Shown: piece after piece, positions 50,758-55,748 of the stretch | Layout of the letters: each line of letters opens with the position of its first letter | Position numbering within the stretch: the stretch's first letter is position 1 | Notes under the pieces: model-generated | Told to the model about the DNA's origin: nothing | The model's input: only the letters and a program-made list of their open reading frames with translations | Databases searched by the model: none | Made by a program: the position numbers and the translations under genes | Origin: Thermus amyloliquefaciens | GTDB lineage: Bacteria; Deinococcota; Deinococci; Deinococcales; Thermaceae | Assembly (NCBI RefSeq): GCF_000744885.1 | Contig: NZ_JQMV01000003.1 | Span: forward strand, 1,922,001-1,986,000 | Direction of reading: 5' to 3' | DNA: 64,000 nucleotides

Positions 50758-53454
50758 TTAGAACACCACCTTGTAGCTAATCTTGAAGCCGCGGCCGTAC
50801 AGGGGGCTACCGTTGTTATCCACCACGAAGTCCGCGTAGGAGAGGGCAAGGTCCCAGTAGTTCCAGGTCACGTAGAAGCCCGTGACGCTCCCGTTGACGC
50901 CCGCAGCGTTCAGCGTGGAGTCGTAAAGGTGGTCCACGCTGGCATCCCAAGCCTTCTCCGCATTGCCCACAAGAACGCTGCCAACGTTCTGGGCGATGTA
51001 GGAGCCGTACTTGACCTCGAGGCTGGAGTTGGCAAAGAGGAACTCGTTCAGCTTGAGGCCAAGGGCGTACTTGGTCTCCGCGTTGTCAGCAGTGCCGCCA
51101 TCCGTGGTGCGGGCCACGTACTCCCCAAAGACGCTGGGCTTCAAGGGCACCGCCAGGGCTTCGGTCTCCGCCTTCACCCCATACTTGAGGGTAGTGTAGC
51201 TTTGTGCCGGCGCACCCACCACGTCCTGCACATGGTAGCGGCCCAGGAGCATGCCCTTGAGGAAGCCAAGGGTGAAGGAGAAGTCGCCGTATACGGCGAT
51301 GTCAGTCTTCGCACCGGGGGCAAACTGCGGGCGCACGTCGTAAGCGGCGGTCAGGTTCAGGCCCTTGATGAAGGCATCGGTGGCCTTACCGTCGTGGGTC
51401 AGCTTAGCCCCGTACTGGGTGTAGTCACTACCAGAGGAGACGTAGCTGCTGGTCCCCGCGGTCTCCTTGGCGGCGCTATCATCCGGGGTGCCGTTGTTGC
51501 CGCTATCGGCCACCCGGTAGTAGCCGCTTAGGCTGAAGGCCCCGAACTTCAAGCCCGCCTCAGCCCCATAGGCGGTCCGGGCACCAGCGCCCGTATAGGT
51601 ATCGTAGAAGCCGCCCAGGCTAAGGGCGCCGAGGGTCAGGTTGGCCTTGGCCCCATAACCCACCTGGTCAGCATGGAAGGGCGCGGCGTTGGCGGCGTTG
51701 GCCGGGGCGGCGTCGTAAGAGAGCATGTTGGCCGGGTTGACGCCCGCTCCGATGCTCCGGTAGTTACCCTCCACGGACACCAGGCCCAAGTCGGCCTTGG
51801 CCTTCACGTAGTAGCCGTTGGCGTTGGCCGCCGCATCGGAGGAGAAGTATTCCCCCGACAAGCTCACCGGCCCTAAGGCCAAGTCGGCGCCCACGCCGTA
51901 CACGGTGACGGCGGAAGGACCTCCACCCAGGATGTCGCCCCCCTGCTGGGCCACAGCCCCCTTAAGGGAGAAGCCCTGGAAGGGAGAAAGGGTCAGGCCC
52001 GCCCCGCGGACGTAGAGGTTATCCCCATCTGCCCCACCCTTAGAGGCGTAAACCCCGGTGAGGGTGGCCCCCAGGACGCCGGGCTTGTAGGTGGCCACAA
52101 GGCCGTGGCCGTAGCTCACACCGTCGTTGTCAAACACGTACTCGCTGAACTTGGTCTTGACCGAGCGGCCGAAGGTGAAGGACAAAGCCTGGTCCTTGGC
52201 CACGGCCAAGGTGGTGGAAACCGCATCCACGGTTACGTTGAGGGGGCCATATGTGGTACCCGAAGCGGGGTTGCTAATCGAGCCCGTCAAACTGAAGCCC
52301 ACCAGGCCAGGGTAGGTGTTGTAACCACCGGGGCTGGACTTGGCGTCCAGCGCGTTGGCCTTTAGGGTTAGGCTGAGGGTGGCCGAGGTCTGACCCTCAG
52401 CGTTCTGGCCCAAGTCCTCATGATCCACGACAAGCCCGTCGCTGTCGCTATCGCCCGTGGAGAAATTAGAGGAGAAAACCCGGTCGATGTCAAACTGGGT
52501 TCCCGAACCCGCGAAGGCCCCGTAGCTGAGGCTCAGGCTACCGCTGATGGTGAAGGCGTTCCGCTCCAGCTTGGACACCTTGCCGGAGAGGTCCCCCACG
52601 GTGCCTTCCAGCTTGGACACCTTCTCGGAGAGGCCCACCAGGTCGGAGCGGAGGGCGGCGGCGAACTCCTGGACCGCGGCCACGTCCTCCTTGGAGGCGA
52701 ACTGCTCAAAGTCCACGCCCTGAAGTTCAGCCAAACCCTTCTCCAGGGCGGTCACCCGGTCCTGCAGGGCCAGCACGTCCTGGTTGAGGAGGACGGCCAG
52801 CTCGTTCAGGGCCTGGATGGCCTGGGCGTTGGCCTCCACCTGGGTGCCCAAGGCGGCCAGGTCACCCTTCACCCCCTCCACGTCCTGGGCCAGGGCGTCC
52901 AGCTGCTCGGCCAGCTGCTGGGCCTGGGCCAAGGCGGTGTCCGCGGCGATGGAGGCGGCCTCCACCCGGTCGGCCAGGTCCTGCAGGGCAGCGGCGTCCA
53001 TGCCAGGCTCGGGCATGGGCATGGCCTTCAGCTCCTCGATCATGGCCTCGAGGCGGGCGATGTCCTCCTTGGTGGCGGCGCTGTCCTCCAGGGCCGAGAC
53101 CCGCACGCCCAAGGCGGCCAGCTCAGCGGCCAGCTCCTGCACGGCGTTCTTCAGGGCCTCGAGGTCCTCGGAGGACATGGCCTCCATGGTGGGGGAGGTC
53201 CCCTTGGCCTTCAGCTCCTCCTCAATCTGCTGCAGGAGGCGGTAGATGATGAGGGCCGCCTGGTAGCGGGTGAGGGTCTCGTTGCCCCGGTAGGTGCCGT
53301 CGGGGAAGCCCACGAGGATCCCCTTGGCCGCCAGGGCCTCCACCGCCTCCTTGGCCCAGTGCCCGGCGGGCACGTCGGAGAACTGGGCTAGACCGAAGCC
53401 CATGGAGAGCACGGTCAAAAGCCCCGCCAGTAGCATGACTAGCTTTTTCTTCAT
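50758..53454 (-). CDS. slpA: S-layer protein SlpA, 898 aa
   Basis: This is the main surface protein of the Thermus envelope. A signal peptide (MKKKLVMLLAGLLTVLSMGF) is followed by an SLH domain (FSDVPAGHWAKEAVEALAAK, then FPDGTYRGNETLTRYQAALI) that binds pyruvylated cell-wall polymer. A long coiled coil spans roughly residues 75-310 (EDLEALKNAVQELAAELAAL; LEGTVGDLSGKVSKL). The remaining 590 residues alternate beta strands as in an outer-membrane barrel and end in Phe. The N-terminal third closely matches T. thermophilus SlpA; the barrel is probably more divergent. Confidence 0.92.
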   Translation of the reverse strand: MKKKLVMLLAGLLTVLSMGFGLAQFSDVPAGHWAKEAVEALAAKGILVGFPDGTYRGNETLTRYQAALIIYRLLQQIEEELKAKGTSPTMEAMSSEDLEALKNAVQELAAELAALGVRVSALEDSAATKEDIARLEAMIEELKAMPMPEPGMDAAALQDLADRVEAASIAADTALAQAQQLAEQLDALAQDVEGVKGDLAALGTQVEANAQAIQALNELAVLLNQDVLALQDRVTALEKGLAELQGVDFEQFASKEDVAAVQEFAAALRSDLVGLSEKVSKLEGTVGDLSGKVSKLERNAFTISGSLSLSYGAFAGSGTQFDIDRVFSSNFSTGDSDSDGLVVDHEDLGQNAEGQTSATLSLTLKANALDAKSSPGGYNTYPGLVGFSLTGSISNPASGTTYGPLNVTVDAVSTTLAVAKDQALSFTFGRSVKTKFSEYVFDNDGVSYGHGLVATYKPGVLGATLTGVYASKGGADGDNLYVRGAGLTLSPFQGFSLKGAVAQQGGDILGGGPSAVTVYGVGADLALGPVSLSGEYFSSDAAANANGYYVKAKADLGLVSVEGNYRSIGAGVNPANMLSYDAAPANAANAAPFHADQVGYGAKANLTLGALSLGGFYDTYTGAGARTAYGAEAGLKFGAFSLSGYYRVADSGNNGTPDDSAAKETAGTSSYVSSGSDYTQYGAKLTHDGKATDAFIKGLNLTAAYDVRPQFAPGAKTDIAVYGDFSFTLGFLKGMLLGRYHVQDVVGAPAQSYTTLKYGVKAETEALAVPLKPSVFGEYVARTTDGGTADNAETKYALGLKLNEFLFANSSLEVKYGSYIAQNVGSVLVGNAEKAWDASVDHLYDSTLNAAGVNGSVTGFYVTWNYWDLALSYADFVVDNNGSPLYGRGFKISYKVVF

Positions 53455-53610
53455 ACTTCCTTACACCCCCTTCAGGGTTTCGGGAAGCACCTTTTGGGCG
53501 AGTTGCCGCGTTTCCTCCCCAAAGGGTGCCTTCCGGGACGCAAGCCTGGTTTCTCGCAGATTCGCCTTGCGCCCGTTGGTATCATAAAAGCCTCACCCAA
53601 GCCCTGTCAA
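53455..53610 (-). promoter_or_regulatory. slpA promoter and 120-nt leader
   Basis: On the minus strand a consensus TTGACA (53605-53610) and TATGAT (53581-53586) are 18 bp apart. The transcript would start near 53574 and carry a leader of about 120 nt, similar in length to the untranslated leader described for T. thermophilus slpA. AAGGAAG lies just before the ATG. The leader is rich in short G/C stems. Confidence 0.8.
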
Positions 53611-53633: not shown

Positions 53634-53639
53634 TATACT
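53634..53639 (+). promoter_or_regulatory. Extended -10 promoter of glmS
   Basis: TATACT is preceded by TGC, giving an extended -10 element. The -35 region is poor. Transcription would start near 53646, leaving a leader of about 290 nt before the glmS ATG. The start lies 70 bp from that of slpA, in the opposite direction. Confidence 0.6.
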
Positions 53640-53689
53640 CCGCCGAGGGAGGTGGGAGGAAGGGTAAAAAGCCAAGGAAAAGGGGAAGG

Positions 53690-53879
53690 CGGGAAGCGCA
53701 GGGGGCCGAAAAGGCCTGACGAGGTGGCGGACCCCAAGTGGGGATAACCGGCCGGGGCCGGGAAAGATCGAGGGATCCGCGGATGCCGCCCGGGGTGTGC
53801 CCGCCCCGCCCGCCTGCGAAAAGCCCCAAGGGAAAGCCCCAAGGAAAAGGCCTCCTGGGGACAACCGCGGGGCAGGGCG
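53690..53879 (+). ncRNA. glmS-type self-cleaving ribozyme in the glmS leader
   Basis: The core elements of the GlcN6P-activated ribozyme appear in order: a predicted cleavage site A-GCGC between 53695 and 53696; a hairpin GGGCC-GAAAA-GGCCT; GACGAGG (53718-53724); a stem GGCGG (53726-53730) with CCGCC (53786-53790); AUCGA (53767-53771); CGCGGAUGCC (53778-53787); and a hairpin CGGGG/CCCCG (53791-53808). A closing P4-like stem GCCUGC/GCAGGGC with an inner CCCC/GGGG stem follows. An extra 35-nt segment with two hairpins sits at 53731-53765. The usual GCGCC reads GCGCA. Cleavage would lower glmS expression when GlcN6P is high. Confidence 0.85.
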
Positions 53880-53896
53880 AAGCAAGGGGTAAGCCG

Positions 53897-53927
53897 GGGT
53901 GGCCGAGGGCATGGCCACCCAAAAGGA
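53897..53927 (+). promoter_or_regulatory. Hairpin and ribosome-binding site of glmS
   Basis: GGGTGGCC (53897-53904) and GGCCACCC (53913-53920) form a perfect 8-bp stem that ends directly before the AAAAGGA site (53921-53927), 6 nt upstream of the ATG. It could insulate or tune ribosome access downstream of the ribozyme. Confidence 0.5.
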
Positions 53928-53933
53928 CGCTCT

Positions 53934-55748
53934 ATGTGTGGGATTGTAGGCTACATCGGTTTCCGAAACGCCACGGATGTGCTCATGGATGGACTGAGGA
54001 GGCTGGAGTACCGGGGGTACGACTCCGCCGGGGTGGCGGTGCGCACCCCCGCGGGGCTGAAGGTGGTCAAGCGCTCGGGGAAGCTTTCCGCCCTGGAAAA
54101 GGCCCTTAAGGAGGAGCACCTGGAGGGGCCTTTGGGCATCGGCCATACCCGCTGGGCCACCCACGGGGCCCCCACCGACCCCAACGCCCACCCCCACACC
54201 ACGGAGGATGGCAAGATCGCCGTGATCCACAACGGCATCATCGAGAACTACCTGGAGCTCAAGGAGGCCCTGAAGGCACGGGGGCACCGCTTCACCTCGG
54301 AAACCGACAGCGAGGTTCTGGCGCATCTTCTAGAGGAGAAATACCAAGGGGATCTTTACGAGGCCCTGAGGGAGGCCCTAAGGGAGGTGCGGGGCGCCTA
54401 TGCGGTGGTGGCGGCGCATGAGGACCACCAGGAGATCGTGGCCGCCCGCACGGTGAGCCCACTGGTGATCGGCCTGGGAGAGGGGGAAAACTTCCTGGCC
54501 TCGGACGTGCCCGCCCTCCTTCCCTACACCCGGCGGGTCATCTTCCTCCACGACGGGGACCTGGCCCGCATCACCCGGGAGGGGGTGGAGGTCACCGACC
54601 TTCAGGGCCGCCCCCTGGAGCGGGAGGTGGTGGAGATCGACTGGACCCTCGAGGCCGCCGAGAAGGGCGGCTTCCCCCACTACATGCTGAAGGAGATCTA
54701 CGAGCAACCCTGGGTGCTGGAGAACACCCTGGGGGGCCGCCTGCGCGAGGAAGAGGGGGACGTGGACCTGGGGCTCCGCCTGGACCCCCAGGCGGTGGAG
54801 CGGGTGCACGTGATCGCCTGCGGCACTGCGGCCTACGCGGGCTGGTACGGGAAGTACCTCCTGGAAGCCCTGGCCCGCATCCCCACGGAGTGGGACGTGG
54901 CCAGCGAGTACCGCTACCGCGATCCCCTGGCGGACGAAAGGACCCTGGCCATCGCCATCAGCCAATCGGGGGAGACCATCGACACCCTGGAGGGGGTGCG
55001 CGAGGCCAAGCGCAAGGGGGCCAAAACCCTTGGGGTCATCAACGCCAAGGGTTCTAGCATCACCCGGGAGGTGGAGGACGTCCTCTACATCCACGCCGGT
55101 CCCGAGATCGGGGTGGCCTCCACCAAGGCCTACACCGCCATGCTGGCGGCCATGGCCATGCTGGCGGTCCACCTTGGCCGAAGGAGGGGGATCCTCGGCA
55201 AGGAGGAAGCCCAGGGCCTCCTTAAGGAGATGCGAAAGCTTCCCCGGTTGGTGGAGGAAGTTTTGGAAAAGCGCCCCCTCATCGCCCACCTCGCCGAGAA
55301 GTACCACCAGGCCCAGGACTTCCTCTTCCTGGGGCGGCACGTGCAGGCCCCCACCGCCTATGAGGGGGCCTTGAAGCTCAAGGAGATCAGCTACATCCAC
55401 GCGGAGGCCTACCCCGCGGGGGAGATGAAGCACGGGCCCATCGCCCTCATTGACGAGCACCTGCCCGTGGTGGTCCTGGCCACCCAAGGCCCCCTCTACG
55501 AGAAGACCCTCTCCAACGTCCAGGAGGTGCGGGCCCGGGGAGGCAAGGTGATCGCCCTGGCCACGGAAGGGGATGAGGAAATCCGCAAGCTGGCCCAGGA
55601 CGTGGTCTACCTCCCGGAGGTGCATCCCCTCCTCGCCCCCATCGTGAGCGTGGTGCCCTTGCAGCTTCTGGCCTACGAGATCGCCGTCCTCCTGGGTCGG
55701 GACGTGGACCAGCCCCGCAACCTGGCCAAGAGCGTGACCGTGGAGTAA
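53934..55748 (+). CDS. glmS: Glucosamine-6-phosphate synthase (glutamine--fructose-6-phosphate aminotransferase)
   Basis: GlmS makes glucosamine 6-phosphate from fructose 6-phosphate and glutamine, the entry to UDP-GlcNAc, peptidoglycan and envelope polymers. The N-terminal Cys (MCGIVGYIG) is the glutaminase nucleophile; LRRLEYRGYDSAGVAV and GHTRWATHGAPTDPNAHPH follow. Two SIS domains are seen (VIACGTAAYAGWYGKYLLEA; AISQSGETIDTL) and the C-terminal tail PRNLAKSVTVE is the conserved isomerase end. The 604-aa length is standard. It is downstream of the ribozyme. Confidence 0.96.
   Translation: MCGIVGYIGFRNATDVLMDGLRRLEYRGYDSAGVAVRTPAGLKVVKRSGKLSALEKALKEEHLEGPLGIGHTRWATHGAPTDPNAHPHTTEDGKIAVIHNGIIENYLELKEALKARGHRFTSETDSEVLAHLLEEKYQGDLYEALREALREVRGAYAVVAAHEDHQEIVAARTVSPLVIGLGEGENFLASDVPALLPYTRRVIFLHDGDLARITREGVEVTDLQGRPLEREVVEIDWTLEAAEKGGFPHYMLKEIYEQPWVLENTLGGRLREEEGDVDLGLRLDPQAVERVHVIACGTAAYAGWYGKYLLEALARIPTEWDVASEYRYRDPLADERTLAIAISQSGETIDTLEGVREAKRKGAKTLGVINAKGSSITREVEDVLYIHAGPEIGVASTKAYTAMLAAMAMLAVHLGRRRGILGKEEAQGLLKEMRKLPRLVEEVLEKRPLIAHLAEKYHQAQDFLFLGRHVQAPTAYEGALKLKEISYIHAEAYPAGEMKHGPIALIDEHLPVVVLATQGPLYEKTLSNVQEVRARGGKVIALATEGDEEIRKLAQDVVYLPEVHPLLAPIVSVVPLQLLAYEIAVLLGRDVDQPRNLAKSVTVE

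Follow-up and report, generated by a model that had tools for sequence, protein, structure and literature searches.

The glmS gene of Thermus amyloliquefaciens is preceded by a long, GC-rich leader, which raises the question of whether this leader encodes a glmS ribozyme and, if so, in which features the ribozyme departs from the canonical form. We analyzed a stretch of 64,000 nucleotides, referred to here as the window, in which the plus-strand gene at 53934 to 55748 was identified as glmS, encoding a glutamine--fructose-6-phosphate transaminase (isomerizing) of 604 amino acids (TIGR01135, 848 bits). The element under study (53688 to 53878, plus strand) is located in the 5' leader of this gene, on the same strand, and its predicted cleavage site lies between positions 53695 and 53696. 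The data make it highly probable that the leader encodes a glmS ribozyme that lowers glmS expression by self-cleavage triggered by glucosamine-6-phosphate (GlcN6P) and that carries two additional stems (P2a and P2b), a shifted bulge, and a flanking helix that we term P0. Homology, structure, and gene context thus support the identity proposed in the first-pass annotation.

The surroundings of the element are as follows. The sequence TATACT at 53634 to 53639 (plus strand) is preceded by TGC, as in extended -10 promoters, and probably represents the -10 box of the glmS promoter; it also precedes the ribozyme element in the leaders L022, L025, and L026. The glmS promoter annotated earlier stands as far as this box is concerned, but a promoter scan of the region scored no full sigma-70-type site on the glmS strand. 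The intergenic region is shared with a divergent neighbor, an SlpA-type S-layer protein gene (50758 to 53454, minus strand; PF21620, SLH domain), and contains a strong sigma-70-like promoter on the minus strand (TTGACA-18-TATGAT, 53581 to 53610). Between the ribozyme and the glmS start, the plus strand encodes a strong GC-rich hairpin without a U-run, GGGGUGGCC...GGCCACCC (53893 to 53925), and most Thermus leaders have a hairpin of differing sequence at the equivalent position. The G+C content of the element is 72.3%; its build is indeed G+C rich, as had been pointed out, but only modestly more so than that of the window (67.6%).

The motifs of the leader, all on the plus strand, follow each other in the order AGCGC, P1, ACGAGG, the P2 5' strand GGCGG, a 35-nucleotide insertion, UCGA, CGCGGAUGCC, the P2 3' strand CCGCC, P3, and P4. 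The predicted cleavage site, A(-1) at 53695 and G(+1) at 53696 of the invariant AGCGC, is homologous to that of glmS ribozymes. It is followed by the P2.2 5' strand (53697 to 53702), composed of CGC, the bulged A5 (53700), G6, and G7, which pairs with CCGCG at 53777 to 53781; this 3' strand is 100% paired in Thermales and covaries with position 6 across the phylum. The P1 hairpin (GGGCC-loop-GGCCU, 53703 to 53717) is paired in 100% of the cells, with compensatory changes in three pairs. The catalytic core strand ACGAGG (53719 to 53724), which in known glmS ribozymes carries the general-base G, is invariant in our alignment and conserved in the Rfam consensus; it includes the P2.1 5' strand (53720 to 53722), and the 3' strand of P2.1 (53768 to 53770) lies within the equally invariant UCGA (53768 to 53771). 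The P2 strands (53726 to 53730 and 53786 to 53790) show a C-G to U-A compensation, and the core sequence CGCGGAUGCC covers 53778 to 53787. The inserted segment occupies exactly positions 53731 to 53765, as annotated, and forms P2a (CCCC/GGGG, 53732 to 53735 with 53740 to 53743), an AUAA linker, and P2b (CCGGC/GCCGG, 53748 to 53752 with 53757 to 53761). The supporting domain comprises the P3 hairpin (CGGGG...CCCCG, 53791 to 53808), whose loop GCCC (53799 to 53802) pairs with GGGC at 53875 to 53878 in the P3.1 pseudoknot, and the P4 domain (53823 to 53873), with an outer stem (53823 to 53827 with 53869 to 53873), an inner stem (53837 to 53840 with 53857 to 53860), and an internal loop (GGGAAAG plus ACAACC) in which AAA and ACA are retained, as in canonical P4 domains. 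With the sequence read directly and the coordinates verified with a script, the motif letters, order, pairing, and coordinates of the first-pass annotation proved accurate to the base, except that helix P0 moves the start of the element from 53690 to 53688.

This structure was evaluated on an alignment of 43 sequences, pseudoknots included, using as a control the same helices with partners slid by 1 to 3 columns. In total, 94.5% of the helix cells were paired, compared with 34 to 56% for the slid partners, and the covariation score exceeded that of all 500 shuffles. Several observations can be made. (i) The segments AGCGC, ACGAGG, UCGA, and GCGGAUGCC showed no variation. (ii) The helices of the double-pseudoknot core, namely, P2.2, P1, P2.1, and P2, were 100% paired; P2.2 and P2.1 never vary in this set, and their support consists of conservation and of the covariation between positions 6 and 53. 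(iii) Compensatory changes were present in P1, P2, P2a, P2b, P3, P4, and P3.1. (iv) P2a and P2b were paired in 99.4 and 98.8% of the cells, respectively, five of their pairs were changed on both sides (C-G to U-A, C-G to G-C, and G-C to A-U), and RNAalifold recovered both stems unaided. (v) The hairpins described earlier as P3- and P4-like are borne out across the alignment, with pairing of 91.3% for P3 and of 92.4 and 100% for the outer and inner stems of P4, respectively. P3.1 was 83.7% paired in the Thermus register; in the Meiothermus-like loci it has the form UGAACC/GGUUCA, one base off this register.

Canonical glmS ribozymes have a C5-G53 pair and a bulge at nucleotide 6. The window presents a different arrangement, in which A5 is bulged and G6 pairs with C53. 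Among 71 canonical loci, retrieved with a pattern that prescribed C5 and G53, position 6 was A, U, G, or C. In every parsed leader of the phylum, by contrast, position 5 was A, and the 6-53 pair was G-C in all 27 Thermus genomes, in 20 of the 21 other genomes of family f1, and in 10/10 genomes of family f4, and A-U in 2/2 genomes of family f2 and 19/22 of family f5; the three remaining f5 leaders carry an A53, with which a 6-53 pair would not form. The simplest reading of these sequences is that the bulge has moved from position 6 to position 5, with nucleotide 6 now predicted to pair with position 53. The unusual GCGCA in place of GCGCC is therefore real and is accounted for by this shift in P2.2 together with the covarying 6-53 pair. 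A mutational scan of the Thermoanaerobacter tengcongensis core gave a similar result, in that A6G rescued G53C approximately 60-fold and C5 was inferred to bulge (PMC7125110). Since the 5-53 pair is not well conserved in the glmS ribozyme family (PMC7125110), its absence here is a variable and not a defining feature. The natural rearrangement of positions 5, 6, and 53 can be regarded as the evolutionary counterpart of the rescue seen in that scan (PMC7125110).

The element was found in 27/27 Thermus genomes, always before glmS and in the same layout, and the conservation of the core in other Thermus leaders on which the initial proposal depended was thus observed throughout. This conservation, along with the pairing of the helices well above the slid controls, indicates that the element is not due to chance. 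A further 77 loci of the phylum were retrieved via GlmS, and the same core was present before glmS in nearly all genomes of families f1, f2, f3, and f4 and in most of those of f5, about nine f5 loci being without a recognizable element. The extra core stems were present in f1, f4, f5, and part of f3 and absent from f2, and equivalents were also seen in L073. Heat adaptation, considered as a full account of these stems, was rejected, since their presence follows lineage; of the high-temperature build suggested earlier, the stems are better described as a lineage trait. Genome G071 of the sister genus g5 initially appeared to lack the ribozyme, which was not the case, as the element was located 590 bases upstream of glmS, beyond an intervening gene. 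At this locus (L079, C38:272543-275101), the intervening gene is on the same strand and encodes a 23S rRNA intervening-sequence protein (PF05635, 97.6 bits), and the ribozyme would lead a two-gene unit.

Family f5 also contains apparently decayed ribozymes before glmS, namely, L121, in which the 5' part alone is kept (CCGAGGUAGCGCAAGCCC...), and L111, which has a degenerate ...AAGCGCA...GUGACAAGG... stretch; in several g22 genomes, no element was seen before glmS. The ribozymes of this family (L093 to L126) seem to be without P4, having a short stretch between the 3' strands of P0 and P3.1 (for example L105, AGACCC/GGGUCU).

Such decay bears on an alternative explanation, according to which the Thermus leader derives from a glmS ribozyme and has kept its fold but has lost GlcN6P dependence or cleavage, for example by having become a constitutive cleaver or a structured leader that an RNase processes. 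This would agree with the decayed appearance of some f5 relatives and with the report that the T. tengcongensis core is substantially impaired when C5 alone is changed (PMC7125110). However, A5 is accompanied in the window by G6 and C53, which restores pairing, and none of the core segments varies among the 43 sequences, a constancy that a nonfunctional fold would not need. We consequently judge this alternative improbable and a functional glmS ribozyme much the better reading.

The search with the Rfam model RF00234 had been proposed as a check of this identity, with the lack of a hit as a refutation. The model matched neither the window at the gathering score (37 bits) nor the 401-base leader at an E value of ≤10, and it matched in 0/27 Thermus genomes. 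Among 111 genomes of the phylum, 21 were matched at an E value of ≤1, of which four were above the gathering score and none was from Thermus. From this search, 20 loci were kept, 17 of which had a glmS start; these matched loci belong to f2, f3, and Meiothermus-like genomes, and the element occupies the same place before glmS. In the best of these sister loci, the Rfam alignments place AGCGC, ACGAGG, and GCGGAUG on the model. Because relatives elsewhere in the phylum are matched, we read the failure on the leader as a limit of the Rfam model: its silence on Thermus reflects insensitivity, and the gathering score is a detection threshold and not a biochemical definition. The class is present in the phylum, and Rfam loses its detection step by step towards Thermus. 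The question raised in the first-pass annotation, whether existing models cover this lineage, can thus be answered: RF00234 does not cover Thermus.

A covariance model of the lineage (R1), built from 23 sequences of the Thermus family and f4, matched in 66 of the 111 genomes when strict filters were applied, and its strong matches sit at glmS. Outside its training set, R1 detected Rfam-positive sister loci, with E values as low as 6e-11, as well as canonical glmS ribozymes of Bacillota, with best E values of 1e-4 to 1e-3, although the latter matches are less independent, as these loci had been preselected by a core pattern. The sister loci are hence reached by RF00234 and by R1, and R1 also reaches the canonical Bacillota members, as expected for common descent. 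Cores of glmS ribozymes followed by a glmS-like start were also seen in L129, L179, L180, L182, L196, and L202, with the record titles Chloroflexi, Tepidiforma, Synergistaceae, and Acidimicrobiia. A divergence great enough to escape RF00234 might be taken to indicate a riboswitch that has shifted to a ligand other than GlcN6P. We consider this very improbable: the strong model matches are located at glmS, the gene for the enzyme that makes GlcN6P, the invariant core segments are kept, and the sequence gives no hint of a different ligand.

Minimum free energy folding of the single sequence gave a z score of -0.79, no more stable than shuffles, and it is uninformative because a GC-rich double pseudoknot is expected to give no signal. 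This value, the 72% GC content of the region, and the silence of RF00234 might suggest chance GC-rich pairing without a ribozyme, an explanation that is already refuted by covariation and to which, in view of the compensatory changes, the slide controls, and the reciprocal model matches, we attach practically no weight.

With the leader thus read as a glmS ribozyme, its boundary is set by helix P0, formed by GGCGGG shortly before the cleavage site (53688 to 53693, plus strand) and CCCGCC directly after P3 (53809 to 53814, plus strand), bases that the Rfam model leaves unpaired. We tested P0 across the phylum at a fixed register against strand shuffles, using distinct sequences only. In 31 non-f5 sequences, 129 of 155 cells were Watson-Crick paired, versus 96.8 after shuffling, and in 20 f5 sequences, the corresponding values were 99 of 120 and 85.6; in neither group did any of 10,000 shuffles reach the observed value, counts that are not probabilities, since related sequences are not independent. 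The occurrence of several different compensated pairs, which include UUCGGG/CCCGAA, ACGGG/CCCGU, UCGAG/CUCGA, ACGAG/CUCGU, and GUCGAG/CUCGAC, is a stronger argument for P0 than the shuffle counts. P0 is weakest in the Meiothermus-like genus g4 (AGUGAGG/CUCCGCU), in which a mismatch or bulge is needed. The same procedure showed P0 to be absent from the 71 canonical glmS ribozymes (101/355 paired cells versus 93.7 shuffled). A free complement search within 52 nucleotides and a looser positional search, both with a swapped-family control, were set aside, as the GC-rich region matches everywhere; own scores were clearly above swapped ones in Thermus only.

Homology, secondary structure, gene context, and the presence of RNase J are directly supported by these data; the RNase J family gene in the genome of the window scored 521.8 bits, against a cutoff of 400. 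By analogy with the family, from which GlcN6P binding, self-cleavage, and the effect on glmS are deduced, plentiful GlcN6P, the product of GlmS, would bind a preformed pocket and act as a catalytic cofactor. The RNA would then cut itself between 53695 and 53696, leaving a downstream fragment with a 5'-hydroxyl that could be degraded by RNase J, so that glmS expression would decrease. P0 would fasten the segment just 5' of the cut to the P3 side of the ribozyme and probably stabilizes the double-pseudoknot fold. It may also retain the 5' product once cleavage has occurred, and in Thermus its six G-C pairs may persist at growth temperature, such that the product would stay attached until a nuclease acts.

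The element resembles the canonical glmS ribozymes (RF00234; Bacillus, Thermoanaerobacter) in gene context, in the core formed by AGCGC, ACGAGG, UCGA, and GCGG.UG, and in having P1, P2, P2.1, P2.2, P3, the P3.1 pseudoknot, and P4 with an A-rich internal loop. Unlike these, the Thermus form has a 35-nucleotide, two-stem insertion between P2 and P2.1, bulges P2.2 at position 5 instead of 6, has P0 flanking the cleavage site, and scores below detection by the Rfam model. McCown, Roth and Breaker (RNA 2011, 17:728) reportedly described glmS variants of Deinococcus-Thermus with additional stems in the catalytic core and altered substructures supporting it, and the element of the window fits this description. 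An enlarged form of the ribozyme in Deinococcus-Thermus is therefore reportedly already known. Among the papers accessible to our literature searches, none quoted this result on Deinococcus-Thermus, and no glmS paper named a P0 helix. The present analysis adds the failure of RF00234 across a whole genus, the account of the bulge shift, and P0, of which the latter two may or may not be new. A further reading, which we hold tentatively and think somewhat likelier to fail than to hold, is that the glmS ribozymes of Deinococcota constitute a subclass of their own, marked by a previously undescribed P0 and the one-position bulge shift in P2.2. In this subclass, the 5' cleavage product would be tethered by P0, which, unlike in Bacillota, could favor reversal of the reaction or postpone decay.

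Taken together, the standard family model misses the glmS ribozyme of a whole genus of model thermophiles, so that automatic annotation suggests that Thermus has none, and the alignment obtained here would mend this model. The GC-rich version from a thermophile is a convenient subject for structural work at high temperature, and P0, if undescribed, would extend, in a testable way, the picture of how the substrate strand is held in this ribozyme class.
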